From Lota lota (taxonomy: Eukaryota; Chordata; Actinopteri; Gadiformes; Lotidae): 64,000 nt of DNA. The position numbers and the translations under genes are program-made. Positions 11,206 to 37,098 of the stretch are shown here, piece by piece. Under the pieces are notes generated by a model that was not told the origin of the DNA, made no database searches, and saw nothing but the letters and a program-made list of their open reading frames with translations. Position 1 is the first letter of the stretch. Every line of letters starts with the position of its first letter. Where the stretch lies: assembly GCA_026745465.1 (NCBI GenBank), contig JACYXH010000091.1:581001-645000 (forward strand), given 5' to 3'.

Positions 11206-14200
11206 ATGGTGAGTGCAAAACCGGTTAAATGTTTCCTAATCCAAATGTTTATGGGGGGTTTTGTTGTTAATTGATCATTGTCTTTCTTTGTGCCTGTACT
11301 GTGACCACATTTCTGTGCTTTTGTTTGGAGTTTTCCACAATCAAAGTATTTTTTATTTAAAAGGTCTTTTTTATTTGCAGAAGTCTTCCTTTGCCTCAAA
11401 CCAAGCAGGTGGATCTAAACTCTTAACCTCATGGATCATCTATTTTCATCTAAGTAAGCAGACTATTGCCTGGAGCATGTCAATACTTTACTGTAAGATG
11501 TGTTTATTGTCATGAATCTAATCATGATAGTTTCTCTGTCTTTCCCCCAGTGTTGTGCATATGGACGGGGGCTGTGGAGGGCTGGTCCTACTTCTACTCA
11601 GACTCCACCATGGACTGGACATCAGCCAGAGGCTGGTGCCAGGATCACTACACCGACATGGTGGCCATCCAGAACCAGGAGGAGATTGCACACCTCAACA
11701 GCTGGCTGCCCAGGATGCCAACCTACTACTGGATAGGGATCCGCAAGGTGGACAACGTGTGGACCTGGGTGGGCACCAACAAGAGCCTCACAGACGAAGC
11801 TACCAACTGGGCAACAGGGGAACCCAACAACGCCATGGACAGCAATACGAAGGGGACAAACGAAGACTGTGTGGAGATGTACATCCAGCGGCAAAGCCAG
11901 ACAGGAAAGTGGAACGACGAGAGATGTGACAAGTTAAAGAGGGCCCTGTGCTACGCAGGTGAGCCACGCTCATTCAACCTATAACCTTTAGTTAATTTCA
12001 AAGGAGGAGTCCTCATTTACAATGGCGATGTTGGCTTTGTTTAATTCATTAATTCGCTCTTTTGTACTATGTAGACATTATCGAAGTTGGATAGAGGTTT
12101 TTGTGCCTGTTTGACATTTTAACATATATTGGCCCTTCCTCTTCCACCCCAGCTGCCTGTAAGAATGACTCCTGCATCCACGGGGAGTGTGTGGAGACCA
12201 TCAACAGCCACACGTGCGAGTGCTTTGAGGGCTTCTACGGAGACAAGTGTGAGCACGGTAAGAGGACGACACATCGGTTGGCCTTTTTCACCACTGTCAA
12301 GTCACGCTCACATTCAGAGCACATAAAGTCTAACCGCGTCTCATTTTATTTTAGTCGTGCAGTGCGATCCAGACAAGGTGGTGGCTCCTGCAAAAGCCCG
12401 TTTCAGCTGCTCCCACGCGCACGGCACTTATGCGTACGGCACCCTGTGCACCTTCTCCTGCGAGGACGGGTACGGGCTCAGCCATCCCGGTCCCATGAGA
12501 TGCACCGCGGCAGGCTCCTGGTCGGAATCCCCCACATGTGAACGTGAGTTAGGCGAGAATACGGGAAATCCACAATCATCGCAAAAAGAGCATACATTTT
12601 CCCATCAAATCAATGTTTTTTAAACGTCTTTGTGTATTGCCGTACAGTGGTTCAGTGTGAAGAGCTGTCCCGACCAAGACACGGCACCTTGGAGTGTGAA
12701 AACCCACTCGGAAATTCCTCCTACCAGTCTTCCTGTGTTTTTTCCTGTGAGGAGGGCTACGACATGCTCCATTCCCGCTCTGACACCCTCCTCTGCGGAG
12801 CCTCTGGGTATTGGAATGACTCGGTGCCAGTATGTGCTGGTACGAACCCATTTCCTTTTCATTTCCTTTTTACTTGCAATACTGTCATGGTATATACAAT
12901 ACATGATTCACTGGAATTGGAATACAAGAAGAAATTTGAAAGGACAGATCCGGAGGAAGCATACTGATATTCCTTTCATGATCCGCAGCTGTCCAGTGTC
13001 CTGCGCTCTTGGAGATGGACAACATGGCCGTCCGATGTGAAGGGGACACGAAGGATGGGTTCAGCTATGGCAGCAACTGTAGCTTCACGTGCTCACGGGG
13101 CTACCGCATGCGGGGCGCGCACACAACCACGTGCACGGCGACGGCGGCGTGGAGCGAAGCGGTGCCTAGTTGTGAACGTGAGCACATATCCCCTCATCGT
13201 CTATCAACCATCATACAGTTACATTTTAACATATATTGGCCCTTCCTCTTCCACCCCAGCTGCCTGTAAGAATGACTCCTGCATCCACGGGGAGTGTGTG
13301 GAGACCATCAACAGCCACACGTGCGAGTGCTTTGAGGGCTTCTACGGAGACAAGTGTGAGCACGGTAAGAGGACGACACATCGGTTGGCCTTTTTCACCA
13401 CTGTCAAGTCACGCTCACATTCAGAGCACATAAAGTCTAACCGCGTCTCATTTTATTTTAGTCGTGCAGTGCGATCCAGACAAGGTGGTGGCTCCTGCAA
13501 AAGCCCGTTTCAGCTGCTCCCACGCGCACGGCACTTATGCGTACGGCACCCTGTGCACCTTCTCCTGCGAGGACGGGTACGGGCTCAGCCATCCCGGTCC
13601 CATGAGATGCACCGCGGCAGGCTCCTGGTCGGAATCCCCCACATGTGAACGTGAGTTAGGCGAGAATACGGGAAATCCACAATCATCGCAAAAAGAGCAT
13701 ACATTTTCCCATCAAATCAATGTTTTTTAAACGTCTTTGTGTATTGTCGTACAGTGGTTCAGTGTGAAGAGCTGTCCCGACCAAGACACGGCACCTTGGA
13801 GTGTGAAAACCCACTCGGAAATTCCTCCTACCAGTCTTCCTGTGTTTTTTCCTGTGAGGAGGGCTACGACATGCTCCATTCCCGCTCTGACACCCTCCTC
13901 TGCGGAGCCTCTGGGTATTGGAATGACTCGGTGCCAGTATGTGCTGGTACGAACCCATTTCCTTTTCATTTCCTTTTTACTTGCAATACTGTCATGGTAT
14001 ATACAATACATGATTCACTGGAATTGGAATACAAGAAGAAATTTGAAAGGACAGATCCGGAGGAAGCATACTGATATTCCTTTCATGATCTGCAGCTGTC
14101 CAGTGTCCTGCGCTCTTGGAGATGGACAACATGGCCGTCCGATGTGAAGGGGACACGAAGGATGGGTTCAGCTATGGCAGCAACTGTAGCTTCACGTGCT

Positions 14201-16198
14201 CACGGGGCTACCGCATGCGGGGCGCGCACACAACCACGTGCACGGCGACGGCGGCGTGGAGCGAAGCGGTGCCTAGTTGTGAACGTGAGCACATATCCCC
14301 TCATCGTCTATCAACCATCATACAGTTTGACTGTATTCATTAAGAAATGTTACGTATCTTTGATGTAACTTTCTGTTGCTCTGTTTCATGTTTGTGTTTC
14401 TACAGGCATCACCTGTCCAGTACCAGAAAATGATTCGCACACGGTCACCCAGTGCAGCGACCCGCTGGACCAACTGCAGCTGGGCTCCACCTGCAGCTTC
14501 ACCTGTCATGCAGGCTTTGAGCTCCAGGGGGCACCTGTGATTCAGTGTACTGAGGATGGGACATGGAACACAAGCGCACCCATTTGCAAAGGTAAACAAA
14601 ACAACAAAAACATGTGAACATATCTACTGTGTTGTTTTTTTTAAACCACTTCAACTGCAGAGATGCTGAGGCTTAATTATCCCTTGTAAATTCTGTGTTT
14701 GTTTCTTGGTTTTTAGTGGTTACGTGTGATCCAGGCAAGGTCTACGCAGCTCCTGAACAACACTCCATTGCAAGGTGCTCCCCCACGCACGACAGTTTTG
14801 CGTACGGTACAGTGTGCGAGTTCTCATGTGAAGAAGGATTCCAGCTCAGCGACCTATCCCAAAATATCATGAAATGCACAGCCAAAGGGACCTGGTCACA
14901 ACAACCTCCTCTTTGTGAACGTAAGTTAGGTGGAACTATAGAAGCACCACAGGAAATATGATGATGTGGAAGGGCTTTATAATGACATTCTGTCGTCATT
15001 CCTACTTTCAGCGCTACAATGCTCTCCACCCGTGGCTCCAGAGTGGGGTCAGATCAACTGTCAGCTGTCCCTCTCTGGGACGGCGTCCCTGTCTTCTGCT
15101 CTGCCCACCTCCTACCCGCAAGGCTCAGTCTGCACCTTCACTTGTAATGAAGGCTATGACCACCAGGGGCCGCTCACCACCAAGTGCACACAGTCAGGCC
15201 AATGGAGCTCCCCACATCCTACCTGCACAAGTAATGATGCCGAAGAATAGATATAGAATCTTCAATTTATGTATTATATATATGAATATAGGTATTCACA
15301 GTGTATCTGTGGATACCTATTGTTATTGTCGCAGTTGGGTAGTATTATTCTTGATTGGTAACGCTTATATCTCCGCGATGCACAGGTCAAAAGTTTTCAA
15401 ATTTGGGGGATTTATACATTTCCGTGGTAAGCAGGTCTCGAAGAAGTCTGCCGGCGAATTGTGCATAGGTGGCGCTATTACATCCGGTTAAAGTTAAACG
15501 ATCAACCCGTCCGCCCCTATGGATGAACATTTCTGAAACTTGGTGTATATGCCATATTTCACATGCTTAAAAACTTAAAAACGACCTTGTGCTCTAAATT
15601 GTATGATAAAAAAACATCTTTCTGTCTCATGCTACAGCGATCAGATGCCCCGTGCTAGATGCTCCAGTCGACGGCGCTCTGAACTGCACACACCCGGACC
15701 CGACACATGCCTCACAGTGTTCCTTTGCCTGCAACCAGGGCTACACCTTAGACGGACACCAGGTTGTCACCTGTGGTCTCCATGGCAACTGGACAGCAGA
15801 GACACCCGTTTGCCAAGGTATGGGGCATAAACGACAAAATACCCGGCAGGTTAAAAGGTACATTTTGGACAAAATAAATAACGTAGAATTGTATTTTTCA
15901 ACAGCTGTCCCTCAGCCCCTCCTGAGTCCCACTGTGATGGGGTTAGCCACAGGGGGCGGCGTGTCTGTGGTCGGTCTCTCTCTGGCTGTCACTCTACTGA
16001 AACGACTCAGGAAACTGAAAGAAAGGAAGTTTTCTCTTGCCAGGTAGTTAACTGTAACAACGCTGGTATATTGAAATGAGGTAAACAAAATGTTATTTTA
16101 TTGGATTGTTTTTTAAACTTTGTACTTTTCTTTGCAGCAATTCAGATGTAGAAGACCCACCGCAGCATTACAAAAACAGTATTGACAGCCTCATCTAG
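11206..16198 (+). CDS. sele: E-selectin-like with duplicated EGF and CCP block
   Basis: Endothelial leukocyte adhesion receptor, type I membrane protein. Exons: 11206-11208 (ATG only), 11381-11453 (signal), 11551-11958 (C-type lectin), 12153-12257 (EGF), 12355-12543, 12648-12839, 12989-13177 (CCP 1-3), 13260-13364 (second EGF), 13462-13650, 13755-13946, 14096-14284 (CCP 4-6), 14406-14591, 14717-14920, 15012-15230, 15638-15817 (CCP 7-10), 15905-16043 (TM), 16138-16198 (tail, TAG). Total 2823 nt, 940 residues; all extracellular domain exons are phase 1-1. The mature protein starts WSYFYS, as in mammalian SELE. Ligand-binding motifs GEPNN and WNDERC are intact. The tail ([14 protein letters not shown]) is closer to E- than to P- or L-selectin, and it ends in DSLI. 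The second EGF comes from a 1107-bp duplication. Paralogue choice is inferred from the tail, N-terminus and promoter. Confidence 0.92.
12114..13220 (+). repeat. sele tandem duplication, unit 1 (1107 bp)
   Basis: First copy of a direct repeat carrying the EGF exon, three CCP exons and their introns. The copy at 13221-14327 matches at a constant offset of 1107 bp; I see only two substitutions (c/t in the intron before CCP2 and in the acceptor region of CCP3). The left boundary is the start of acattttaac; the right boundary is the end of catacagtt. Confidence 0.92.
13221..14327 (+). repeat. sele tandem duplication, unit 2 (1107 bp)
   Basis: Second copy of the EGF plus three-CCP block, directly abutting unit 1. 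The join reads cagtt|acattttaac. The four exons are unchanged at the protein level, and phase 1 splicing keeps the frame, so the product gains one EGF and three CCP domains. Confidence 0.92.
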
Positions 16199-18931: not shown

Positions 18932-21663
18932 ATGAAGTGCGCATTGATCCTCTTCATGTGTCAGTACAACCCCTTTACAAGTCTAGCTTATGAATACATT
19001 TATAAAATATAAACTGGACATCAGTCTACCCGATAATGTCGATCAAAAAAGATGAAAACAACTAAATTCCAATAATGCATTACTGTAAATGTGGGATTTT
19101 CTTGTAATGCCTTTCCATGCGATCAACAGGTTACCTGGCTGGCCGTGCCCATGGCTGGCAGTATTACCACTCCACAGAGCCCATGAACTGGACCCAAGCC
19201 AGGCGGTGGTGTCAGAACAAATACACTGATATGGTGGTCATCCAAAGCCAGAAGGAGAATGACCATGTGGTCTCTCTGCTGCCCAACAGAACGGGAAGTC
19301 CGTACTACTGGATAGGAATCACGAAGAGCAAGAAAAGCGACCCGTGGACCTGGGTAGGAAACAACAGCACATGGATCGGTAATCAGTCGTGGGCCACCAA
19401 TGAGCCCAACAACAACCACAGCACCGAGTTCTGTGTGGAGATATATGTCAACCACAACAAGGACAACAGAGGAAAGTGGAACGACGAGAAGTGCAGTCAT
19501 TTGAAGTATCCTGTTTGTTACCAAGGTGAGATGTGTGCTTTGGTCATTTGGGATTTAGGAAATAGGATCAGCTTGTCGATAATAGTATGGTTTCATCATC
19601 ACATGATGAACTAACCAGTGTCGAATGAGCAAATGTTTGCTGGAAATGGATGAACCTTCCATTTAGTATGAGTTAATCTTCTATCCTACCCTTTCCTGTG
19701 CAGTCCAGTGCAATCAGACGTCATGCAACAGAGGGAGATGTCGTGAAACCATCAATGACATCTTCTGCCTTTGTGAGCCTGGCTTTGGAGGGGACAGGTG
19801 CCAAACAGGTAAGAATAGAGCTACTAATAATATAGTTATTTAATAGTTTCTTTAATACGTCATGGCTTCGTTTACATCTCTTGTATTATGATTGTTGCTT
19901 CTAATAACATGCCGATGACAATGATTTGATCGATTTTTAGAAATGGGGCATGAATACCTAATCATCAGGAAAAAATTACTTACAAAAACACACAATTTTA
20001 CTTTCACATGAAAACACCGTTGTCACATGGTAAGGTATTGCTACAGAAGCGATTGTCCAATACATTCTGTCCTTCCTGTATTTCCTGGCAGATACAAACT
20101 GCTAGGAAACGTTCAGGGTCAGGTGTGAGGCTTAATGGCCGTGAGATGTCAAAGATCTTGGTGTACTTAGCAGTCTCAAGATATAGTACGCTATTGATCC
20201 AGCGTGACGGCTCCAAGCATCTTTAATGACCCATATCATGGCCCCTTAGCCAAGCAAAAAGTGTTTAGGTGGCGTTTGACCTTTGACGAGTGCATATGTT
20301 TGCATGTTTGCAATGCATTTGAATTGTTTTCGCGCTGCCCTTGCACGCCAACCCATCTGCTTCCTGGATTTCCTGGGGTCAGGCTGATGAGCCACCAATC
20401 TTCCTTGAACATCAACATCAACAGCGGGTTAGGGAGATAGTGCCTTCACGCGATTAACCGGTCAAGTAACCGCGGGAAACCCTTGATCCCTTTAACTTGA
20501 ATCTCACTGATCCACACAAACAGATTTCGTGCCTCTTTATCACATCGACATTCTTTCATATAATGTATTTTATTTTGTATATGACAAGAAACACCTAAAA
20601 GTCAAGAAAATCTCATCCATTTGTTTGTTCACTATAGTTTATATTGTGCTCTTATTTATGGTGAACTTAGATTTGATTGTTTATTGAATTCTAAAGTTTG
20701 CTATCTAACTGAATGTGACTAGATTCGACTTGAATCTGTGTGTTTGTGCCTCCTCCAGTGGTAGGCTGCCCCCCTCTCTTCCGATCCTTGTATGGACGTC
20801 TGAACTGCTCTGACCAGAGCCACGCTTTAAACTCTACTTGCCGTATAGGCTGCCCCTCTGGATCCCTCCTACTGAGGTCAGCCCAGGTCACCTGTAGCAG
20901 TGATGGGACCTGGCATGGACCGAGACCCATTTGCACAAGTAAATGATGTCCCATTTTCATTGACAGACGATAACAGCTGACTAGGTGACCACTGTTAAAT
21001 AACCATAATTGTAATTTGTTATATTTGTGAGCTTGTAATTGATCGGGAAATTGCATTTTAATCTACATTCTGAAGTGTTTCAACTTTTAGCTATGACTTA
21101 GCTACCCAACTAGATCAGTTTCAGAAAATAAATAAATAAGGAGTTGATTCAGATTATCAATAGAAATATATTCTATTTTGCAGATTATAAACATGCTTTA
21201 ATGGCTCTGGCTGGTTGTGGGGCCTTTGGCATCATGAGTTGCATCTGTTTTTGTGCTTTGAAGCGCAGAAAAGGTAGGTACCATCGGCTTCAGTATTTCA
21301 AAACCCCAAATGCCATGCAATGTTTTTGCAACAGAAATCAAATCATGTGTTTGTTCTTACTGTCACCAGGAAAGAAGCTTACCCAACTAAGGTCAGTGTT
21401 GAAATGTCAAGTTTGGCGACTCCACCCTTACTTGCATTACTTGATATGTTGCCATCACTGTGGTAAAGGTTTCTTTACAGTTCCTTACCTTTGTGTTTAT
21501 TTAGCAATACGATGGGAATCTATAGAACGTTTGTAGTTTAATTCATTAATTTAAACCTGCACTATGTCTCTTTTTCACTGCTGCTGTAACATGTACCTGT
21601 ATGTGTCGTCTTTATAGGGGACCTGAAGAAGACATAGGTTCAGCGAATGAGGCTCATAGCTGA
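18932..21663 (+). CDS. sell: L-selectin-like, single CCP
   Basis: Leukocyte homing receptor-type selectin. Exons: 18932-18959 (start, MKCALILFM), 19130-19525 (lectin), 19704-19808 (EGF), 20759-20938 (one CCP), 21184-21273 (TM), 21370-21391 and 21618-21663 (tail). Total 867 nt, 288 residues; all junction phases agree. The signal peptide ends near AGRAHG, just before WQYYHS. NEPNNN and WNDEKC keep the Ca2+/sugar-binding residues. The single CCP has six cysteines, the selectin pattern. The TM is followed by a basic juxtamembrane stretch, KRRKGKKLTQLR, like ERM-binding tails. Mammalian L-selectin has two CCPs; the 950-bp intron before this CCP shows no second exon. Orthology to SELL is inferred from short length and order; the stop is only ~490 bp before the selp start. 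Confidence 0.88.
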
Positions 21664-22154: not shown

Positions 22155-25100
22155 ATGGTAAGTAACAACATTTCAATGTAAAATGTGTACTACATTACCT
22201 GCAGTGTTGCATATATTGCTTTTCTTGTGACCGAATGTTTCAGGAGCCAATTCGTCTGAACCCAGGTCCCTACCCCCTGCTGATAATAGCCACAATGACT
22301 GCACTCATTCAGGGTAAGTTTGCGTGACTATCACACTACCACCAAACAGTCTAGCTCTCGTTCACAAAAAGCAAACGTGTGTTTCCATATATCTGATCCC
22401 AGATCTGAGCACTACAGGAGGGGCCCACGCGTGGAGGTACCACTACAGCACCGACCCAATGCGTTCCTGGAGCTCAGCCCGAACCTGGTGCCAGCAGCAT
22501 TACACAGACATGGTGGCTATCCAGAACCAGGGGGAGATCACCTACCTCAACCAGATGCTGCCCTTCAACCCCAGCTACTACTGGATCGGCATCCGCAAGG
22601 TGGCGGGGGTCTGGACCTGGGTGGGTACCAAGAGGAGCCTGACACCAGATGCTGAGAACTGGGCGGTCGGGGAGCCTAACAACGCATACGAGGACTGTGT
22701 GGAGATGTACATCAAGAGGGATAAGGACACGGCGAAGTGGAACGACGAGCGGTGCAATAAGAAGAAAGGAACGGTCTGCTATACAGGTATATAGTTGTCA
22801 TGTATATATTATACTTTCAAATATCTGTCCTCTATAAGTCATTCGCAAGCAGTTCAATGAAACATGAAACACTTAGATGTTGTAAGTACGTTGTAACGTC
22901 CATTATTAGCTCACATTCCATAATATTCTCCTATGTACTCAGTTATAGAGTACACATGTACTGGACTGTCTGTGCAGTTTGATTTCTAACTCTCGATGGT
23001 TATAGCCTCGTGTTTAGAGGGATCCTGTGGTAACCATGCAGACTGTGTAGAGACCATAGGAAACTTCACCTGCCAATGTCACCCCGGCTTCCTAAGCCCT
23101 CCCTGTGAAGAGGGTGAGTAGACTTACAGTTATGATCCTGAAATGAGCATGTACTTATGTATGTCATTAAGGAGCAGGTAGGGGTCACGCCTCTTGCTCA
23201 AGGGTGCCTGAAGGAAAACTGTAGACACCAGGGTTTGATTTGGACATCAAACTCCCTAACCACTAGACTACCCTACCCTCCAACCCACTCAATCACAATC
23301 TGTTACAGTCTGAATCATATTTGAAATATCATCTCCTATGATAATTCCTCAGCTGAAAATAGACATGTCATGCCCTTTCGGTGCTTCTGTCCGTTTCTCC
23401 ACCAACAGCAGTCACGTGCGACGCCCTCTCGGGTCCCCAGCACGGCCGTCTCCAGTGTTACGACTCCTATGGACCTTCACGCTTCAATTCATCCTGCCAG
23501 TTCCACTGTGACCTTGGATACCGGGTGGAGGGCCCGGAATGGCTGCAGTGTCAGGCGTCCGGACGCTGGGACCATCCGGCCCCTCGGTGCCAAGGTAGGG
23601 GTTATCGGTCGGGAGACGACATCGATTGAATCATTTTGTAACATTTTCAAAGTTGAGTTTGAAGGTAAGCTTTTCTTCCCCGATAGTGGAACGGTGCACG
23701 GCTCTGAACCGAACGTCTGACAGACTGCTCATGACTTGCAGCCATCCGATTGCTCCTTCCAGCTTCAACTCCACTTGTGCGTTCAGTTGTGAGGAAGGTT
23801 TCGAGCTTAGCGGACAGAGCTTGACAGAATGCGACCATGCGGGAAAATGGACCGCCGATGTCCCAACGTGTTCAGGTAAAATCTGTTTGTTTTCTTTTTA
23901 TTGTTTAATAAAGCAAGCATATGCATTCATGCATTATTTTCAAATAATTATCATTATGATCTACAATCTTTTGATGTTATTATCGACATCATCGTACATC
24001 GTAGTTTTGCATTATAGGTTAGTTGTAACTCAGTTTACATAATGGTGCATTGTCTCCATTTAGAAACATTGTACAGGCAGCGATTTAAATGAGTCAGAGG
24101 CATGTAAGTATTTGTTGTCTTTTGGTTTTCCAATATTAAACAGAAGATGCAAATTAGACCTAATCTCTGTAGTGCAGATACCACAACTCTTCCGACAGAC
24201 ATGACCTCTCGATACACAGTTGCACGTGCATATCAGACATGACCTCTCGAGACACAGTTGCCCGTGCACAACATCAGACATGACCTCTTGACCTCTCTTT
24301 CACGCAAACAACCTCTTATAGTCACACAAACCCCTTTGAAGCTTCAGGATACAGGACCAACATCCGCTAATTCAGGCCATCGGTTTCCACAACAACATGG
24401 AAACACACTCTGCTGCCTTGACAACACTAGTCCCATTCTGTATTAGATTGTTTCCCAACGAGTTCTGAATATTTGGCAATCAACCGTATGATGAACACAA
24501 TTCAATGTGAATAAGCCCTTGCCATTTCCCTCGACTGTAAATCATGTCAACATCATTTTTTTTCACACCATAATCTGTGCATATATTGAATGAGTGTTTA
24601 TATGAAACCGTGATATGGTGTGCTTTTCATCAGCTTCTATTGAAATCATACTCAAAAAGACAAAAAACGAAATGCATTCCTGCATCCACCTGAATGTGTG
24701 TGTGACCCTTGGATGTATGTGATCCTCCACAGTGATTGCGTGCGCTCCCATTTCCCCTCCTGCTATGGGCAACATGACCTGTGTTGACAGCCTGGCTCAG
24801 TTCTCCTTTGGCTCCTCGTGTAGCGTCACCTGTTTGGAAGGCTACACTCTGGCTGGCAGCCACACACTGGCCTGCCTAGCCTCTGGAGAGTGGAGCCAAG
24901 CTAGACCCACTTGTATAGGTACGATCTGTTTTTATGGTCTGGAAATGTAGAGCACAAAAAAAAACTGAACAAAATTGAAATATATTGGAAAAGCATGAAG
25001 TATGAAGTATTGAAAAAAAACAATTTCTGGAAAATGCTGCATATTTCTGTGAATCCAAACAAACTATCTGATTTTTTTTTTCAAAATAATAATTTTGAAT

Positions 25101-25836
25101 ATATGAGGCCTAAAGTGTTCTTGACCTTCTTCAGCTGTGCGGTGCAGCAGTCTGAAAGTCCCCCCCCATGCCGTCTTGGGCTGCCAGGATCCTATCAGAG
25201 TCTCCAGCTACGGTTCCACGTGCACCGTGCACTGTGAAGAGGGATTTAATCTGATCGGCAGCAACACCACTCAATGTTCAGCACAGGGCCGCTGGAGTCG
25301 TGGACTTCCTGTCTGTCAGGGTATGGAAGGAAGATGAAGGCCCTTTTGGGCCAAATTACAAACACACTTTTTTATGAACCTTTTCCCTGTGTTTAACTCC
25401 CTCTCCTCATTCAAATATATGGTTCATGTTTACCAGGAACTACACTAGGAACTATTGTATTTGTACTCAAACTATAGGATCTATTATTGCATAGGAACCA
25501 GGAAGTACACACAGGAATTTACTGGAGGGGCTGTGAAAATAAAAAAAAAACAGACCCATTTCATGATCAGTAGGCCATATAATACATGCTTTTTCAGTCC
25601 CTATGTTTTTTTTCCAGCAGCGGTGCTGAGATTTGTGTGAGGTGCACAACATTTGTTTCGCCATTAATGTAAATACAGTTTGCAGCTATCCCATTGTCTG
25701 GTGTCCATAATACAGTTGCAAACAATTAGCATTTGGGGTGCCCACATTTTTTTGTAATAATAATCCAGCAGCAGCGCTGTTTCACTGATGGATGCATGGA
25801 GGAGAAAAACTGGTCACTGGTTTGCTTATCTCTCCC

Positions 25837-25879
<43 letters not shown>

Positions 25880-27372
25880 CGTCACGGCTCCCAGTCCTGT
25901 TCCCATCCATTTGGCCCCATCAGCAACGTGCCATGCATGGGGGGCTTCTTCCTGCGAGGGACGGCTCACACGTCATGTGTTGAGGATTGTATTAATTGTT
26001 AAAAAGTTTGATATGGTTTCGCCTCATGCTGTTTTCCCCATCCTTGCCAAAGCCCTGTCTCTGACTCCCACTGTTAGTTGACGACACCTTTTCCCTGCCC
26101 TCACGCTCCTTCCTGCCAGATCCCTTTCTCTGACCCTCAGTTTTAGTTGATCAAAGAATTATGTCTTCACCTTCATCCTGTTCTCATCCTCCTCCCTGCC
26201 AGACGTCTGTCTCTGACCCCCTTTTGTTCTTAAAGCAATTGATCAACGGAGCAATTGAGGGGTTGGTATTAGCATCAAATGGCCCTTCTTTTGTCTTACA
26301 GCTCAAAAACAGATCCCTGTCTCTGACTCCCACTTTTAGTTGATTTATGTGTATTTACCTTCATTCTGTTATTAATCCCCCTCCCTGCCAAACATCGGTC
26401 TATATCCCTCCACTACTCTTGAGGAGTTGATTGAACAATTTGTGTATATCCACATTCATCCTGTTATTAAATCCCCCTCCCTGCCAGACACCGGTCTCTA
26501 TCCCTCCACTACACTTGAGGAGTTGATCAAACAATTCATGTGTATTCACCTTCATCCTGTTCTCATCCTCCTCCCTGCCAGACGTCTGTCTCCAACCCAA
26601 AGCGGCCCTTCCCTTGTCTCACAGCCTAACAGATCCCCCTCAGACCAACAGGTCGGGGGCCCATCACACACCAGCAAATGTTTAGCCTAGAGAGGGTGTA
26701 GGCGGTTTGTAACCCAATAGGATTCTGTGGGTTACACCTTTTTGTATAATAACAGGTAATGATTGGAGGTAACTGAGAGCCCCGCCCTTGTCATGTGCTT
26801 TAAGATATTGTGTTTTGCAATGAATGAAGAACTTTAATGGGAAAATAATGAGAACAAAAATGGGAGAGCAAGGAGGATTTACACACAGAATTAAGATGCA
26901 GAGAAATTAGGTAACCACAGAAGGACTGGTGGTTGTTTTGGGTATCCTGCGTGATCCCACGAATAAAGTGTAATGTGAATAATGTGAAGTATTGACGCCA
27001 CAGTCTTTTTGGAAGAATTGGACATGGAAACTTGCCCTGGATTGGATCTAACTTCTTCACATGCCTGGAGCACAGCAGAGCCTTGCAGTGCTTGGGTCAA
27101 AGAAAATAGAATAGTATAGAATACAATGGAGGCTCTTAGGTGGCTGATTTCATCCCAAGTGTACAATACTGTATGCAGTACACAGGATTGCTAGACTGGG
27201 TACATAGAGAGATGGTAGAATTGTACTGTTAGAGGGGGAACATTTGTACATCAAGCATCGGTGATTCAAGTGGGAATAAATCCCCCAACTCTAGCAGTGT
27301 CAATGCCATGCTCTGCCAATTGAGCTGCACTCACACATGCACGTGCACAAACGCACGTACGCACATACACGC

Positions 27373-27411
<39 letters not shown>

Positions 27412-30400
27412 TTAAACATGTTCCACCTCTCTGTGTCTCTTCAGCCATGCAGTGCAGAGTCCTGTCTGCTCCCCCTCACGGCTCCCTGTCCTGCTCTGAC
27501 CCCCATGGAGCGTTTAGCTTCTCCTCTCGCTGTGCTCTTACCTGTGATGAAGGCTTCCTGCCTAACGGGACGGCCCACACCGAGTGCTCCTCTCTGGGGA
27601 CATGGAGTCAGGAAGTCCCTCAGTGCCTGGGTAAGACATGATAAGACTTAGAAACTATATATCTATATAAACTTGTAGGATGCTCGTATCAGTGCTATTG
27701 GAACTACACAGACTCTCTTAGCACTGTGGTTGTCATTTCCTAAGTCCTTTTGAATTCTCCTTAGCATCTTTCCTTGGCCTCATGGAGTTTTTCATCGAGG
27801 TCAAGGAAAAGGGGTTAGGAAAGGACATAGGACGTAATATCTTTTTTTGGACTATTCAACCGAAGCCCAAGTTCAGATCATAAACGTAGGAACCAGGAAG
27901 TATACTTGCCCAGGTTCAGATCTTAAACATAGGAGCCAGGAAGTGTACCTACCCAGGTTCAGATGTTAAGCATAGGAACCAGGAAGTATACCTGCCCAGG
28001 TTCAGATCTTTCACATAGGAAACAGGAAGAACACTATTCCAGGTTCAGATCTTAAACATAGGAACCAGGAAGTACACTAGTCCAGGTTCAGATCTTAACC
28101 CTAGGGGTTTTCCACCTCTCTGTGTCTCTTCAGCCATGCAGTGCAGAGTCCTGTCTGCTCCCCCTCACGGCTCCCTGTCCTGCTCTGACCCCCATGGAGC
28201 GTTTAGCTTCTCCTCTCGCTGTGCTCTTACCTGTGATGAAGGCTTCCTGCCTAACGGGACGGCCCACACCGAGTGCTCCTCTCTGGGGACATGGAGCCAG
28301 GAAGTCCCTCAGTGCCTGGGTAAGACATGATAAGACCTAGAAACTGTACATGTATTAAGAACTAGTAGGATGTACGTATAAGTACTATAGGAACTACGCT
28401 TCTATAGAAACCAAAAACAACACTAGTATAGGAACTAGTAGGATGTTTGAATTGCAACTACAAGTATAGTTACATAGGAACCAGGAAGTATACCTGCCCA
28501 GGTTCAGATCTTAAACATAGGAACCAGGGAGTATACTTGTCCAGGTTCAGATCTTAAACAAAGGAACCAGGAAGTATACTTGCCCAGGTTATGATTGTTA
28601 AGCATAGGAACCAGGAAGTATCCTTGCCCAAGTTCAGATCTTAAACATAGGAACCAGGAGGTGTACTTGTCCAAGTTCAGATCTTAAACAAAGGAACCAG
28701 GAAGTATACCTATCCATGTTCAGATGTTAAACATAGGGGTTTTCCACCTCTCTGTGTCTCTTCAGCCATGCAGTGCAGAGTCCTGTCTGCTCCCCCTCAC
28801 GGCTCCCTGTCCTGCTCTGACCCCCATGGAGCGTTTAGCTTCTCCTCTCGCTGTGCTCTTACCTGTGATGAAGGCTTCCTGCCTAACGGGACGGCCCACA
28901 CCGAGTGCTCCTCTCTGGGGACATGGAGTCAGGAAGTCCCTCAGTGCCTGGGTAAGACATGATAAGACTTAGAAACTATATATCTATATAAACTTGTAGG
29001 ATGCTCGTATCAGTGCTATTGGAACTACACAGACTCTCTTAGCACTGTGGTTGTCATTTCCTAAGTCCTTTTGAATTCTCCTTAGCATCTTTCCTTGGCC
29101 TCATGGAGTTTTTCATCGAGGTCAAGGAAAAGGGGTTAGGAAAGGACATAGGACGTAATATCTTTTTTTGGACTATTCAACCGAAGCCCAAGTTCAGATC
29201 ATAAACGTAGGAACCAGGAAGTATACTTGCCCAGGTTCAGATCTTAAACATAGGAGCCAGGAAGTGTACCTACCCAGGTTCAGATGTTAAGCATAGGAAC
29301 CAGGAAGTATACCTGCCCAGGTTCAGATCTTAAACATATGAACCAGGACGTGTACCTGCCCAGGTTCAGCTGTTAAGCATAGGAACCAGGAAGTATACTT
29401 GCCCAGGTTATGATTGTCAAGCATAGGAACCAGGAAGTATCCTTGCCCAGGTTCAGATCTTAAACATGGCAACCAGGAAGTGTACTTGTCCAAGTTCAGA
29501 TCTTAAACAAAGGAACCAGGAAGTATACCTATCCATGTTCAGATGTTAAACATAGGGGTTTTCCACCTCTCTGTGTCTCTTCAGCCATGCAGTGCAGAGT
29601 CCTGTCTGCTCCCCCTCACGGCTCCCTGTCCTGCTCTGACCCCCATGGAGCGTTTAGCTTCTCCTCTCGCTGTGCTCTTACCTGTGATGAAGGCTTCCTG
29701 CCTAACGGAACGGCCCCCACTGAGTGCTCCTCTTTGGGGACATGGAGTCAGGAAGTCCCTCAGTGCCTGGGTAAGACATGATAAGACCTAGAAACTGTAC
29801 ATGTATTAAAAACGAGTACGATGCTTGTTTAAGTACCATGGCAACTACACTTGTATAGAAACCAGAAACTAGTATAGGAACTAGTAGGATGTTTGAATTG
29901 CAACTACAATTACAGTTACATAGGAACCAGGAAGTGTATTTCAATAGTAACCAGAAAGTATAATTGAATATAAATAAGAAAATATGCTTGACTACGAACC
30001 AGGAAGTATACCTGAATCGGAACTAGGAAGTATACTCAAATATAAACCAGGAAGCTTACTCCCATCAGGAAGTATACCTGAATCGGAACTAGGAAGTATA
30101 CTCAAATATAAACCAGGAAGCTTACTCCCATCAGGAAGTATACTTGAACAGGTTCAGATGTTAAACATATGAACTAGGAAGTATACTTGCCCAGGTTCTG
30201 ATCTTAAACATAGGAACCAGGAAGTACACTAGTCCATTTTCAGATGTTAAACATATGAACCAGGACGTGTACCTGCCCAGGTTCAGCTGTTAAGCATAGG
30301 AACCAGGAAGTATACTTGCCCAGGTTATGATTGTCAAGCATAGGAACCAGGAAGTATCCTTGCCCAGGTTCAGATCTTAAACATGGCAACCAGGAAGTGT

Positions 30401-33400
30401 ACTTGTCCAAGTTCAGATCTTAAACAAAGGAACCAGGAAGTATACCTATCCATGTTCAGATGTTAAACATAGGGGTTTTCCACCTCTCTGTGTCTCTTCA
30501 GCCATGCAGTGCAGAGTCCTGTCTGCTCCCCCTCACGGCTCCCTGTCCTGCTCTGACCCCCATGGAGCGTTTAGCTTCTCCTCTCGCTGTGCTCTTACCT
30601 GTGATGAAGGCTTCCTGCCTAACGGGACGGCCCACACCGAGTGCTCCTCTCTGGGGACATGGAGTCAGGAAGTCCCTCAGTGCCTGGGTAAGACATGATA
30701 AGACTTAGAAACTATATATCTATATAAACTTGTAGGATGCTCGTATCAGTACTATTGGAACTACACAGACTCTCTTAGCACTGTGGTTGTCATTTCCTAA
30801 GTCCTTTTGAATTCTCCTTAGCATCTTTCCTTGGCCTCATGGAGTTTTTCATCGAGGTCAAGGAAAAGGGGTTAGGAAAGGACATAGGACGTAATATCTT
30901 TTTTTGGACTATTCAACCGAAGCCCAAGTTCAGATCATAAACGTAGGAACCAGGAAGTATACTTGCCCAGGTTCAGATCTTAAACATAGGAGCCAGGAAG
31001 TGTACCTACCCAGGTTCAGATGTTAAGCATAGGAACCAGGAAGTATACTTGCCCAGGTTATGATTGTTAAGCATAGGAACCAGGAAGTATCCTTGCCCAG
31101 GTTCAGATCTTAAACATAGGAACCAGGAAGTGTACCTATCCATGTTCAGATGTTAAACATAGGTGTTTTCCACCTCTCTGTGTCTCTTCAGCCATGCAGT
31201 GCAGAGTCCTGTCTGCTCCCCCTCACGGCTCCCTGTCCTGCTCTGACCCCCATGGAGCGTTTAGCTTCTCCTCTCGCTGTGCTCTTACCTGTGATGAAGG
31301 CTTCCTGCCTAACGGGACGGCCCACACCGAGTGCTCCTCTCTGGGGACATGGAGCCAGGAAGTCCCTCGGTGCCTGGGTAAGACATGATAAGACCTAGAA
31401 ACTGTACATGTATTAAGAACTAGTAGGATGTACGTATAAGTACTATAGGAACTACGCTTCTATAGAAACCAAAAACAACACTAGTATAGGAACTAGTAGG
31501 ATGTTTGAATTGCAACTACAAATATAGTTACATAGGAGCCAGGAAGTATACCTGCCCAGGTTCAGATGTTAAGCATAGGAACCAGGAAGTATACCTGCCC
31601 AGGTTCAGATCTTAAACATAGGAACCAGGGAGTATACTTGTCCAGGTTCAGATGTTAAACATAGGAACCAGGAAGTATACTTGCCCAGGTTATGATTGTT
31701 AAGCATAGGAACCAGGAAGTATCCTTGCCCAGGTTCAGATCTTAAACATAGGAACCAGGAAGTGTACCTATCCATGTTCAGATGTTAAACATAGGTGTTT
31801 TCCACCTCTCTGTGTCTCTTCAGCCATGCAGTGCAGAGTCCTGTCTGCTCCCCCTCACGGCTCCCTGTCCTGCTCTGACCCCCATGGAGCGTTTAGCTTC
31901 TCCTCTCGCTGTGCTCTTACCTGTGATGAAGGCTTCCTGCCTAACGGGACGGCCCACACCGAGTGCTCCTCTCTGGGGACATGGAGCCAGGAAGTCCCTC
32001 AGTGCCTGGGTAAGACATGATAAGACCTAGAAACTGTACATGTATTAAAAACGAGTACGATGCTTGTTTAAGTACCATGGCAACTACACTTGTATAGAAA
32101 CCAGAAACTAGTATAGGAACTAGTAGGATGTTTGAATTGCAACTACAATTACAGTTACATAGGAACCAGGAAGTGTATTTCAATAGTAACCAGAAAGTAT
32201 AATTGAATATAAATAAGAAAATATGCTTGACTACGAACCAGGAAGTATACCTGAATCGGAACTAGGAAGTATACTCAAATATAAACCAGGAAGCTTACTC
32301 CCATCAGGAAGTATACTTGAACAGGTTCAGATGTTAAACATATGAACTAGGAAGTATACTTGCCCAGGTTCTGATCTTAAACATAGGAACCAGGAAGTAC
32401 ACTAGTCCATTTTCAGATGTTAAACATATGAACCAGGACGTGTACCTGCCCAGGTTCAGCTGTTAAGCATAGGAACCAGGAAGTATACTTGCCCAGGTTA
32501 TGATTGTCAAGCATAGGAACCAGGAAGTATCCTTGCCCAGGTTCAGATCTTAAACATGGCAACCAGGAAGTGTACTTGTCCAAGTTCAGATCTTAAACAA
32601 AGGAACCAGGAAGTATACCTATCCATGTTCAGATGTTAAACATAGGGGTTTTCCACCTCTCTGTGTCTCTTCAGCCATGCAGTGCAGAGTCCTGTCTGCT
32701 CCCCCTCACGGCTCCCTGTCCTGCTCTGACCCCCATGGAGCGTTTAGCTTCTCCTCTCGCTGTGCTCTTACCTGTGATGAAGGCTTCCTGCCTAACGGGA
32801 CGGCCCACACCGAGTGCTCCTCTCTGGGGACATGGAGTCAGGAAGTCCCTCAGTGCCTGGGTAAGACATGATAAGACTTAGAAACTATATATCTATATAA
32901 ACTTGTAGGATGCTCGTATCAGTACTATTGGAACTACACAGACTCTCTTAGCACTGTGGTTGTCATTTCCTAAGTCCTTTTGAATTCTCCTTAGCATCTT
33001 TCCTTGGCCTCATGGAGTTTTTCATCGAGGTCAAGGAAAAGGGGTTAGGAAAGGACATAGGACGTAATATCTTTTTTTGGACTATTCAACCGAAGCCCAA
33101 GTTCAGATCATAAACGTAGGAACCAGGAAGTATACTTGCCCAGGTTCAGATCTTAAACATAGGAGCCAGGAAGTGTACCTACCCAGGTTCAGATGTTAAG
33201 CATAGGAACCAGGAAGTATACTTGCCCAGGTTATGATTGTTAAGCATAGGAACCAGGAAGTATCCTTGCCCAGGTTCAGATCTTAAACATAGGAACCAGG
33301 AAGTGTACCTATCCATGTTCAGATGTTAAACATAGGTGTTTTCCACCTCTCTGTGTCTCTTCAGCCATGCAGTGCAGAGTCCTGTCTGCTCCCCCTCACG

Positions 33401-35507
33401 GCTCCCTGTCCTGCTCTGACCCCCATGGAGCGTTTAGCTTCTCCTCTCGCTGTGCTCTTACCTGTGATGAAGGCTTCCTGCCTAACGGGACGGCCCACAC
33501 CGAGTGCTCCTCTCTGGGGACATGGAGCCAGGAAGTCCCTCGGTGCCTGGGTAAGACATGATAAGACCTAGAAACTGTACATGTATTAAGAACTAGTAGG
33601 ATGTACGTATAAGTACTATAGGAACTACGCTTCTATAGAAACCAAAAACAACACTAGTATAGGAACTAGTAGGATGTTTGAATTGCAACTACAAATATAG
33701 TTACATAGGAGCCAGGAAGTATACCTGCCCAGGTTCAGATGTTAAGCATAGGAACCAGGAAGTATACCTGCCCAGGTTCAGATCTTAAACATAGGAACCA
33801 GGGAGTATACTTGTCCAGGTTCAGATGTTAAACATAGGAACCAGGAAGTATACTTGCCCAGGTTATGATTGTTAAGCATAGGAACCAGGAAGTATCCTTG
33901 CCCAGGTTCAGATCTTAAACATAGGAACCAGGAAGTGTACCTATCCATGTTCAGATGTTAAACATAGGTGTTTTCCACCTCTCTGTGTCTCTTCAGCCAT
34001 GCAGTGCAGAGTCCTGTCTGCTCCCCCTCACGGCTCCCTGTCCTGCTCTGACCCCCATGGAGCGTTTAGCTTCTCCTCTCGCTGTGCTCTTACCTGTGAT
34101 GAAGGCTTCCTGCCTAACGGGACGGCCCACACCGAGTGCTCCTCTCTGGGGACATGGAGCCAGGAAGTCCCTCAGTGCCTGGGTAAGACATGATAAGACC
34201 TAGAAACTGTACATGTATTAAAAACGAGTACGATGCTTGTTTAAGTACCATGGCAACTACACTTGTATAGAAACCAGAAACTAGTATAGGAACTAGTAGG
34301 ATGTTTGAATTGCAACTACAATTACAGTTACATAGGAACCAGGAAGTGTATTTCAATAGTAACCAGAAAGTATAATTGAATATAAATAAGAAAATATGCT
34401 TGACTACGAACCAGGAAGTATACCTGAATCGGAACTAGGAAGTATACTCAAATATAAACCAGGAAGCTTACTCCCATCAGGAAGTATACTTGAACAGGTT
34501 CAGATGTTAAACATATGAACTAGGAAGTATACTTGCCCAGGTTCTGATCTTAAACATAGGAACCAGGAAGTACACTAGTCCATTTTCAGATGTTAAACAT
34601 ATGAACCAGGACGTGTACCTGCCCAGGTTCAGCTGTTAAGCATAGGAACCAGGAAGTATACTTGCCCAGGTTATGATTGTCAAGCATAGGAACCAGGAAG
34701 TATCCTTGCCCAGGTTCAGATCTTAAACATGGCAACCAGGAAGTGTACTTGTCCAAGTTCAGATCTTAAACAAAGGAACCAGGAAGTATACCTATCCATG
34801 TTCAGATGTTAAACATAGGGGTTTTCCACCTCTCTGTGTCTCTTCAGCCATGCAGTGCAGAGTCCTGTCTGCTCCCCCTCACGGCTCCCTGTCCTGCTCT
34901 GACCCCCATGGAGCGTTTAGCTTCTCCTCTCGCTGTGCTCTTACCTGTGATGAAGGCTTCCTGCCTAACGGGACGGCCCACACCGAGTGCTCCTCTCTGG
35001 GGACATGGAGTCAGGAAGTCCCTCAGTGCCTGGGTAAGACATGATAAGACTTAGAAAGTGCACATGTATTAAAAACTAGTAGGATGTTTTATAAGTACCA
35101 TAGGAACTACCCTTGTATAGAAACCAGAAGTCCAGGAATTAGTAGGATGTTTGAATTGCTACAAAAAATATAGTTACATAGGCCTGTATGTTATGTTCTA
35201 TAGGCTTATACTGTGTAGGTTCTAGGAACTATACTATGCCATACGTGTATGCGAAAGTATATACTTGTATAGGTACTGCAAACTGTACTCAGAAAGTAAC
35301 TTTGAACTGACTTTGCTATCTATATATACTTGAATGTACAATTTTTTTATTTTGTGTATTCGAGTAGGGCTAAACTGCCAATTTCCAAGGACTTTGAATT
35401 GAAGTCATTTTCTACACAAACGTGCGTGTCTGTGTGTGTGCTTCTGTGTGTGTGTGTGTTTGTGTGTGTGTGTGATTGTGTGCGTGCCTGCGTGCATCTG
35501 TGTGTGT

Positions 35508-35547
<40 letters not shown>

Positions 35548-37098
35548 CATTACTTTGCTCAACTGTTTGCTCAACTGTTACTTTACCCAGTTTATGTTGT
35601 TCCACTGTGATTTCCAGCTCGCCCCTGCCCTCTACTGGTCGATGCACCTCACCACGGCTGGATGAACTGCAGCCATCCTCACTCGTCCTTCAGCCACGGC
35701 TCCCACTGTGACCTTGGGTGCAGCGAGGGCTTCCAGCTCAGTGGAACACCAAGCATAAACTGCAACACATCCGGCAGCTGGAGCGGGGAGATGCCAACGT
35801 GCAAGGGTAAAGTCTAAGGAAGAACTCTTTATTGGCCATTCGTAACAGGAAATGTATGAAACATCTGACAGGAACTTTAGACAGGGACACCTACAACCAT
35901 TTGATGAAAATGTGCAAACAAAGAGTGCAAACCACTAAAGGTGACTGCACACTGCCCAACGGTTGGCCGAAGTTGGCCAACACAGAATCCTACAAAACAT
36001 TTAATCCAAAAACAGCCAACACAATGAGCCAACAACCACCAGCGGCTATGGCACACTGGCCGGACCATGAGTTTTGTTGCCGTTTTTAGCTGTTTGTTGT
36101 GGCAGTGTGCCAGCACTTTTAAGGTTTTACAATTTCATTAAATATGACCGGAGAAAAATCATAAATCATAGTAAGATCTATGTGTACTTACCATGTAGTG
36201 TTGATGTGTGTGTTATATACTGTGCCTCTCTCACACACCAGTGGTCCAGTGTACGGCTAGCTGGCTGGCTGGCCTCCCCGCCTCACCCCTCTCCCTCAAC
36301 TGCTCCCACCCCCGGGGGAACTTCAGCTTCGGCTCCTATTGTCGGTTCTCCTGTGCGGGGGGTTACTCCCTGAACGGTACTGAGGACCTGCTCTGCTCCT
36401 CCTCCGGGCTCTGGAGCAGTGCTTTACCAACGTGCGCTGGTAAAACTCCCCCATTTTATATGAAAAGTTAACTTGATTAATGCAGTATCGTAAGTGACTA
36501 TTTAGTCATTTAGCTGAAGCTTGCTATCCTTGTGAGACCATCCTGATCTCGCTAGTTGGCATTCTGTTTCAACTTGAATATGTGGATGGTCTCACGAGGC
36601 TAGAAGCATGCATCCAAAAGGCATGAAGCTTTAGGGCAGGTAGGGCTTAGGGGTTCTAGGGATCCAACTCAGAACCTTTCCTCTGGGAGTCACTGAACAC
36701 CTTCACACCACCACACTATCCATACTATTCACTGATACAGTTTGCGTTTAGGCCATTCAATAGCAATGCATAATCCCTTTTGGGTTTTGAGGTATTTGAA
36801 GGTTTGATTACTGGTGTGTGTTCCAGAGGAGGGCACGCCTATGTGGTTGGCCATCCTGATGTACTCTGGAGCGGCGGCTGCCTCCCTCGTCGCGCTGCTC
36901 CTCGCAGTCGGGCTCGGCCTGCTGGCCGCCAAACACTTCCGGAAAAATGGTGAAAAGCCTGATTGTCTGACGAGATACACATGACTATATTTTTATTTAG
37001 TTTGAGAGTAACAATGCTGTTTATTTCATCATACAGGTTTTATGGATGTGAACAATTCATTCTGGGAAGAGAGAGAAAACCCAGCTTTTGAACCTTGA
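22155..37098 (+). CDS. selp: P-selectin-like with 17 CCP domains
   Basis: Platelet/endothelial selectin, type I membrane protein. Exons: 22155-22157 (ATG), 22244-22313 (signal), 22403-22786 (lectin), 23006-23113 (EGF), CCP 1-4 at 23409-23594, 23687-23875, 24733-24918, 25135-25320; CCP 5-15 are the near-identical array starting at 27445, 28134, 28766, 29585, 30502, 31192, 31824, 32675, 33365, 33997 and 34848 (186 bp each); CCP 16-17 at 35618-35806 and 36242-36439; TM 36827-36949; tail 37037-37098. Total 3930 nt, 1309 residues. Lectin motifs GEPNN and WNDERC are intact. The tail ends ENPAFEP, like the mammalian P-selectin ending used for sorting and endocytosis. Mammalian P-selectin usually has nine CCPs, so the stalk is about twice as long. 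All exons are phase 1-1, so copy number can change without frameshift. Confidence 0.92.
23165..23285 (-). mobile_element. tRNA-derived SINE fragment (reverse)
   Basis: In the intron between the selp EGF and CCP1 exons, the phrases ttgctcaagggtgcctg, gggtttgattt and ctaaccactagactaccc match the typical reverse-oriented tRNA-like part of teleost SINEs. Borders are approximate. Confidence 0.45.
25838..25877 (+). repeat. C40 homopolymer
   Basis: Forty uninterrupted C residues lie in a selp intron directly before a decayed CCP exon. It appears to have grown from the ctccccctcacggctccc phrase of the ancestral exon. Such a tract can form i-motif/G4 structures and is prone to length errors in assemblies. 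Confidence 0.85.
25878..25985 (+). pseudogene. Decayed CCP exon relic in selp
   Basis: Sequence after the C40 tract aligns by eye to the array CCP exon: cacggctccc then gtcctg, a CCCAT..TTGG block, ggcttcttcctgcgagggac (array: ggcttcctgcctaacgggac) and ggctcacac. Frame and splice sites are gone, and the 5' half is replaced by poly-C. It is probably an old copy of the same exon family left of the active array. Confidence 0.6.
26050..26630 (+). repeat. Imperfect tandem repeats, selp intron
   Basis: Recurring phrases such as tccctgccaga, ctgtctctgac, ttttagttgat and cttcatcctgtt appear at irregular spacing, so this is a degenerate tandem repeat block between the CCP relic and the array. No coding exon is seen in 25321-27444. 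Confidence 0.6.
27190..27335 (-). mobile_element. tRNA-derived SINE head (reverse)
   Basis: Read on the minus strand, the segment gives agctcaattggcagagcatg followed by a degenerate B box near gggggatttattcccac. This is the tRNA-like promoter head of the SINE class common in protacanthopterygian fishes. It lies just upstream of the first array exon and is followed by a (CAGA)n tract at 27375-27410. Confidence 0.55.
27860..34830 (+). repeat. Intronic ~43-bp minisatellite in selp array
   Basis: Every array intron is made largely of a ~43-bp unit with the core aggaaccaggaagtatac followed by ttgcccaggttcagatctt and aaacat. Units vary by point changes. A 66-bp internal duplication at about 30008-30140 makes the copy 4 intron longer than its type c sisters. 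Each unit contains AGGAAGT, an ETS-type core. Confidence 0.9.
30502..32674 (+). repeat. Higher-order CCP repeat unit 1 (2173 bp, a-b-c)
   Basis: Three CCP exons (30502, 31192, 31824) with their introns form one block that recurs at exactly 2173 bp. Type a introns begin gacttagaaactatat, type b gacctagaaactgtac with ttaagaac, and type c the same start with ttaaaaacgag. Confidence 0.9.
32675..34847 (+). repeat. Higher-order CCP repeat unit 2 (2173 bp, a-b-c)
   Basis: Second copy of the three-exon block (32675, 33365, 33997), identical or nearly so to unit 1 by eye including intron minisatellites. It is followed by an eleventh exon at 34848 that starts a third, truncated unit whose downstream intron diverges after gacttagaaa. 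Confidence 0.9.
35428..35545. repeat. (TG)n before selp CCP16
   Basis: An interrupted TG tract ends about 70 nt upstream of the CCP16 acceptor at 35617. In the transcript it is a UG repeat, the known ligand of TDP-43-type proteins. Confidence 0.85.
36490..36725. mobile_element. SINE remnant with nested inverted-repeat insertion
   Basis: The phrases atttagtcatttagctgaagctt and, further on, ggttctagggatccaactcag resemble a SINE split by an insert. The insert (about 36527-36605) has near-perfect 16-bp terminal inverted repeats, ccttgtgagaccatcc and ggatggtctcacgagg, like a small non-autonomous DNA element. It lies in the selp intron before the TM exon. Confidence 0.4.

Follow-up and report, generated by a model that had tools for sequence, protein, structure and literature searches.

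The stretch of DNA analysed here (the window; 64,000 nucleotides of the burbot, Lota lota, contig JACYXH010000091.1) contains a P-selectin-type gene whose stalk includes eleven near-identical complement control protein (CCP) domains, each encoded by a single exon of a tandem array. We consider it quite probable that this gene is intact and that its array of a symmetric CCP exon is variable in length, having been shaped by unequal exchange and concerted evolution. All positions given without further specification are those of the window. The array consists of the following exons:

27445..27630, + strand, array unit 1 (CCP5), A-type intron next
28134..28319, + strand, array unit 2 (CCP6), B-type intron next
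28766..28951, + strand, array unit 3 (CCP7), A-type intron next
29585..29770, + strand, array unit 4 (CCP8), H>P variant, C-type intron next
30502..30687, + strand, array unit 5 (CCP9), A-type intron next
31192..31377, + strand, array unit 6 (CCP10), Q>R variant, B-type intron next
31824..32009, + strand, array unit 7 (CCP11), C-type intron next
32675..32860, + strand, array unit 8 (CCP12), copy of unit 5
33365..33550, + strand, array unit 9 (CCP13), copy of unit 6, Q>R
33997..34182, + strand, array unit 10 (CCP14), copy of unit 7
34848..35033, + strand, array unit 11 (CCP15)

All 11 exons, which together span 27445-35033, are 186 bp long, open in frame, and of phase 1-1, and the same splice edges are found at every one of them (gtgtctcttcag before the exon and gtaagaca after it). 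Each unit encodes six cysteines and one N-glycan site. Nucleotide variation is confined to 6 of the 186 sites, giving 98-100% identity among copies, and residue changes number three in total (unit 4 has H>P, and units 6 and 9 have Q>R), none of which affects a cysteine or the glycan site. An earlier note on this DNA had described the exons in the same terms, from length and phase to the intact splice sites, the cysteines, and the three changed residues, and its point about symmetry holds as well: as each array exon is phase 1-1, copy number can change without a break in the frame. A chance or low-complexity repeat was ruled out by the presence of eleven intact, 98-100% identical 186-bp exons in a full gene. 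DNA matches to the array exon in the 575-Mb home assembly (867 contigs) numbered at least 11, a count to be taken as a lower bound, and as 11 of 11 fell inside the P-selectin-type gene, copies scattered over the genome were ruled out.

A P-selectin-type gene with 17 CCPs

The gene is the third selectin-type gene of the window and encodes a lectin domain, an EGF domain, 17 CCPs, a membrane span, and a tail. The gene model comprises 1,311 codons uninterrupted by a stop and has AG/GT splice sites at all exons. Four CCP exons are followed by the eleven array CCPs and then by two further CCP exons, so that both the P-selectin-type architecture and the count of 17 put forward in the earlier note were recovered in one open model. 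Outside the array, the following features were assigned:

22235..22313, + strand, signal-peptide exon; start codon inferred, ends in phase 1, compared with the start of cod protein P0001
22403..22786, + strand, C-type lectin exon; Pfam Lectin_C, best PDB match E-selectin 4c16, also L- and P-selectin
23006..23113, + strand, EGF exon; hEGF/EGF_3 weak, below the Pfam cut-off, aligns with the E-selectin EGF
23409..23594, + strand, CCP1 exon; an alternative acceptor is possible 3 bases downstream
23687..23875, + strand, CCP2 exon
24733..24918, + strand, CCP3 exon
25135..25320, + strand, CCP4 exon
25862..25990, + strand, decayed array-like CCP exon remnant; E-value 3.3e-4, domain start missing, a run of about 44 C adjoining
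35618..35806, + strand, CCP16 exon
36242..36439, + strand, CCP17 exon
36827..36949, + strand, transmembrane exon; weak donor gtgaaaag, membrane span judged by eye
37037..37098, + strand, cytoplasmic tail exon, ends in the stop; tail like those of P0006 (Lota lota) and P0001 (cod)

The lectin exon aligns to E-selectin and retains the GEPNN, EDCVE, and WNDE motifs, which we take to be those of calcium binding. As in selectins, the lectin domain is followed by an EGF domain (below the Pfam cut-off, but aligned to the EGF of E-selectin), six-cysteine CCPs (the cysteines being counted in the array unit), a membrane span recognised by eye, and a short tail. Among the matches listed, most of the named best ones are called P-selectin or E-selectin, names given there to the same kind of protein, and the best PDB match is E-selectin. 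P-selectin (SELP/CD62P) of mammals and fishes has the same lectin, EGF, CCPs, membrane span, and short tail; the burbot gene differs from it in having 17 CCPs, compared with nine in human and six in cattle according to PMC5395145, and in that eleven of the 17 are near-identical copies of one exon. Of these two mammals, human alone has the nine CCPs that the earlier note gave as usual for mammalian P-selectin. The decayed remnant at 25862-25990 lies between CCP4 and the array and retains array-like residues, suggesting that array units have probably been lost as well.

Intron types and an exact block duplication

Unit spacings through the array are 689, 632, 819, and 917 bases, followed two times by 690, 632, and 851. 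By identity and length, three types of array intron can be told apart; they follow one another as A B A C A B C A B C before a terminal intron and measure 503, 633, 504, and 504 bp for type A, 446 bp (three times) for type B, and 731, 665, and 665 bp for type C. The second half of the array is built of two adjoining blocks:

30502..32674, + strand, three-exon block, first copy (units 5-7), 2,173 bp
32675..34847, + strand, three-exon block, second copy (units 8-10), 2,173 bp, identical to the first

At the block offset, exact identity extends over 2,819 bp (30066-32884 versus 32239-35057), and with 0 differences in 2,819 positions the divergence of the copies is below 0.11% (95% upper bound). 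One sequenced burbot is reported to have a heterozygosity of 0.5% (PMC8650494), so the duplication, if it is real and its copies were not polished alike, would be younger than a typical pair of alleles. On the same proviso, the three-exon duplication would be expected to be segregating still. Copies of a 43-bp minisatellite are spread through the array introns (27865-34819), and a similar motif was seen by eye once near 25490, in the intron after CCP4. This minisatellite is a plausible substrate for unequal exchange.

Uniform exons and divergent introns

Diversity was calculated for the eight non-redundant units, with units 8-10 set aside as copies of 5-7. The pairwise difference was 0.96% in the exon and 1.4% at its 35 fourfold sites. 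Successive 25-base intervals downstream of the exon differed by 3.3% and then by 17% and 19%; upstream, with unit 1 also set aside, the nearest 25 bases differed by 0% and the seven preceding intervals by 6 to 18%. Variable sites made up 6 of 186 in the exon, 2 of 35 among fourfold sites, 0 of 17 in the first downstream intron bases, and 6 of 17 from +18 to +34, the last fraction being higher than that of the exon (Fisher P 9e-5) and that of the fourfold sites (P 0.011) when sites are taken as independent. Because the fourfold sites are uniform and protein selection alone does not protect them, exchange tracts centred on the exon are favoured, perhaps with some splicing constraint in addition.

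Arrays in other gadiforms

The comparison of CCP number with related fishes, which the earlier note had suggested, showed the array to be present at the same position in annotated proteins of five gadiform genera, including that of the window, with 4 to 11 units. Cod protein P0001 has six units, Muraenolepis has five identical ones, and Coryphaenoides has four, in each case between CCP4 and the last two CCPs. At the protein level, identity of array units within a record averaged 97.1-100% (lowest pair 95.0%), and identity between genera averaged 79.2-91.8% (highest pair 93.3%), so that in all five genera the likeness within a species exceeds that between species at the same position of the gene. 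When P0006 was left out, 11 of the 17 variable columns (of 61) were fixed within each of the five species. In a tree of the domains, flanking CCPs clustered by position across species (CCP16 with weaker support, 89/74), and the array units of hake, Muraenolepis, and Coryphaenoides each clustered by species. P0013 and P0080 were not used in the identity, column, and tree comparisons, nor were flanking domains that the models give in part or not at all (CCP2 and CCP4 of hake, CCP16 of P0006, CCP17 of Muraenolepis, and CCP1 of Coryphaenoides). As judged from these sequences, the array units are undergoing concerted evolution.

Copy numbers also differ between records of one species. The window has 11 units and the Lota lota protein P0006 has 5; cod P0001 has 6 and cod P0013 has 4, all of these except the window being annotations. 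The two cod proteins, both predictions, carry different sets of variants, and dropping of exons alone is therefore insufficient to relate them. These numbers suggest a length polymorphism. The variation between individuals that the earlier note had raised is indirectly supported by the 2,173-bp duplication, the 5-unit burbot protein, and the differing cod proteins, these proteins being annotations. Outside the array, 11 of 598 residues differ between P0006 and the window, and flanking CCPs of cod differ from those of the window by about 13% on average. The 1.8% difference from P0006 is rather high within one species, and a distinct lineage is possible.

Two observations concern the records themselves. 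The Muraenolepis proteins P0005 and P0080, which are assigned to contigs of different length, have five array units each, and one unit differs in P0080. The public models P0006, P0005 (Muraenolepis), P0002 (Merluccius polli), and P0122 (Coryphaenoides) fuse neighbouring selectin genes, so annotated CCP counts at the selectin locus need care.

Stalk length across fishes

To place the burbot stalk among those of other species, 147 proteins (146 from the database and the window's own) were screened, and only those with a single lectin domain, placed at the start, were kept; 31 were thereby dropped and 116 remained. The lists comprised the best 120 of 1,156 and the best 120 of 658 matches, which biases them to close and long relatives, and they include some isoforms. 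A near-identical run was counted where a unit of one, two, or three CCPs stood in two or more tandem copies and neighbouring copies were 88% identical or more. The 116 single-lectin proteins, mostly from fish, have 8 to 29 CCPs (median 11), and 61 of them contain near-identical runs; both counts include the window and P0006. Seventeen CCPs as a record length was ruled out, since nine other proteins of the 116 have 17-29, some of them named SVEP1-like or perhaps misjoined gene models, and length alone is thus not extreme.

Sixty of the 116 proteins, the window included, fit a layout of CCP1-4, N array-type CCPs, and the last two CCPs, with N ranging from 2 to 11 and the window having the largest number. 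Many of the 60 have diverged array-type units, suggesting that homogenisation is limited to some lineages; the long stalk of P0003, from another fish, has 10 diverged units at a mean identity of 74%. Cottoperca gobio resembles the window in having 11-12 near-identical units, and differs from it in that its 12 array-type units occur without the CCP3 and CCP4 types. Runs of CCPs are also found in Brienomyrus (a two-CCP unit repeated six times) and in gar and whitefish (three-CCP units), but these three differ from the burbot array in the period of the repeat and in which types of CCP it contains.

Origin of the array

We propose that copies of the exon would be gained and lost by unequal exchange between intron repeats, the latest gain being the three-exon block of 2,173 bp, and that the exons would be kept alike within a species by unequal crossing-over and probably by short-tract gene conversion centred on the exon. 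The encoded protein would form a long rod in which 17 CCPs raise a selectin lectin head of the ordinary calcium-dependent kind further off the membrane, with an N-glycan site on every array unit. We infer that the mature transcript includes all eleven exons, that individuals differ in copy number, that gene conversion acts on the array, and that the property which varies is reach or compliance. In codfishes, the length of the P-selectin stalk seems to expand and shrink over evolution. A more far-reaching proposal, to which we would give somewhat less than an even chance, is that the codfish stalk is a fast-turning coding variable number tandem repeat: alleles within a species would differ in their number of identical CCPs, conversion restricted to the exon with its splice edges would homogenise them, the reach and compliance of this vascular adhesion receptor would be a heritable and tunable length trait, and the same position would have been expanded repeatedly in fishes.

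Several points weigh against the proposal of an intact, length-variable, concertedly evolving array. A protein search for a burbot transcript fragment over the spliced array junctions found none (4 matches, best identity 73%). The copy number may reflect an assembly or polishing error, short-read polishing can raise the apparent likeness of copies, the 43-bp minisatellite may inflate the divergence of the array introns, and the Fisher tests depend on the assumption of independent sites. Copy counts outside the window are gene predictions, three of them from defective models: the model of hake (8 units, protein-identical) has no CCP4 and an incomplete CCP2, that of the second cod protein, P0013 (4 units), misses most of CCP4, and P0006 (5 units) is a two-gene chimera without CCP16. 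In the tree, which had only 60 usable columns, cod units did not form one group and units 6 and 9 of the window fell outside the other burbot units. Finally, polymorphism at 2 of the 17 variable columns is found in more than one species, and at one of the two R occurs in burbot, cod, hake, and Coryphaenoides, so either homogenisation is incomplete or the change has recurred.

If the second block, and possibly more, were an assembly artefact, produced by false duplication or by collapse during polishing, the true array would have about eight units or fewer. The exact identity of the blocks over 2,819 bp, the second near-exact tandem duplication in the neighbouring selectin gene (1,107 bp, 2 mismatches), and the 5 units of the other Lota lota protein, P0006, would all fit such an error. 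We nevertheless regard it as unlikely, as eight units that are distinct in introns or exons remain without the second block, a 7.6-kb array is within reach of ordinary long reads in a contig of 5,615,000 bases, and arrays also occur in the protein annotations for cod, hake, Muraenolepis, and Coryphaenoides. Strict purifying selection, acting on the sequence and on splice enhancers, could in principle keep exons alike with no exchange of sequence, and the conservation of the exon and its splice edges between diverging introns is what it would produce. Copies less alike within than across species would speak for it, but the protein comparison gave the reverse; moreover, the unit changes between genera at a mean of 8-21% of residues, mostly in all copies together (11 of 17 columns fixed per species), and fourfold sites are almost as uniform as the remaining exon. 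We consider this explanation very improbable.

A further alternative concerns what the homogeneity is for. P-selectin binds C3b, and near-identical repeats offer repeated identical sites, like the repeats of CR1, so the array might be a multivalent binding surface (for complement C3b, for example) rather than a spacer, with homogeneity preserving each site. Such binding by the array is putative; the array CCP was compared solely with selectin-type CCPs, and P0003 reaches a long stalk with its diverged units (10 units at a mean of 74% identity). We give this possibility little credence.

Function and parallels

Selectin length is a known variable of leukocyte capture and has been studied with shortened constructs (PMC7076219). 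P-selectin with five, six, or nine repeats attached similar numbers of neutrophils, with four repeats it needed higher concentrations, and with three or fewer it failed; E-selectin binding improved with more repeats, up to six (PMC7076219). Stiffness was highest in L-selectin, with two repeats, and lowest in P-selectin, with nine (PMC7076219). Given the similar capture with five, six, and nine repeats, an increase from 9 to 17 need not alter capture, and the change in tethering under flow that the earlier note suggested is conjectural; by analogy with these capture and stiffness data a change of compliance or reach is likelier than a gain in capture. The E-selectin result may leave room for an effect of length on binding. 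The natural series of stalks described above, in which one scaffold holds 2 to 11 array-type CCPs, would make length separable from the rest of the molecule, and the array is a compact case of the question why exons homogenise while introns a few bases away do not.

By analogy, the closest working parallels would be LPA KIV-2 and the size alleles of CR1. In LPA KIV-2, too, domain exons that are near-identical and in frame form a tandem array within the coding sequence; its unit is 5.6 kb with two exons, alleles have 1 to about 40 units, and the polymorphism is proven, whereas the burbot unit consists of a single exon within 0.63-0.92 kb and its polymorphism is presumed. The long homologous repeats of CR1 are of seven CCPs each. 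CR1 has CCP repeats of changing number, as the burbot gene probably does, but what is repeated is a long homologous repeat in CR1 and one CCP in the window, where a block of three CCPs has been duplicated. For KIV-2, truly identical units have been suggested as well (PMC11462820), and in CR1 the number of CCP repeats shifts through unequal crossing-over (PMC4842007). Among the literature titles listed on selectin stalks, fish, or exon duplication, which include few subscription journals, none described such an array, which is weak evidence of novelty; the expanded number of P-selectin genes in clams (PMC9484242) is a different matter. Novelty may lie in a selectin with an exon array that is homogenised and probably polymorphic in length, and in the recurrence of such an array among fishes.

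Neighbouring genes

Three selectin-type genes stand in a row on the + strand, with lectin exons at 11556-11960, 19126-19527, and 22402-22788. Mammalian selectin genes adjoin F5, and SCYL3 is a neighbour of the human selectins. No F5-type exon was recognised by eye among the + strand frames of at least 60 residues in the right part of the window or among the longer frames of the 40 kb beyond it, no search having been made in either case. Open frames in L013 may resemble SCYL3, but two of the frames gave no Pfam match.

The upstream selectin gene contains a tandem duplication (12114-13220 and 13221-14327) of 1,107 bp with 2 mismatches. The duplication repeats an EGF exon and three CCP exons, and the predicted selectin would thus have an internal EGF besides the first one; an assembly error could also account for it. 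In the middle gene (19126-21400), the lectin exon is followed by a single CCP (20764-20937), with the EGF and membrane span recognised by eye; the L-selectin of mammals has two CCPs (PMC7076219). About 15 kb past the right end of the window, on the minus strand, open frames resembling a retroelement polyprotein were observed (L010:4600-7300).

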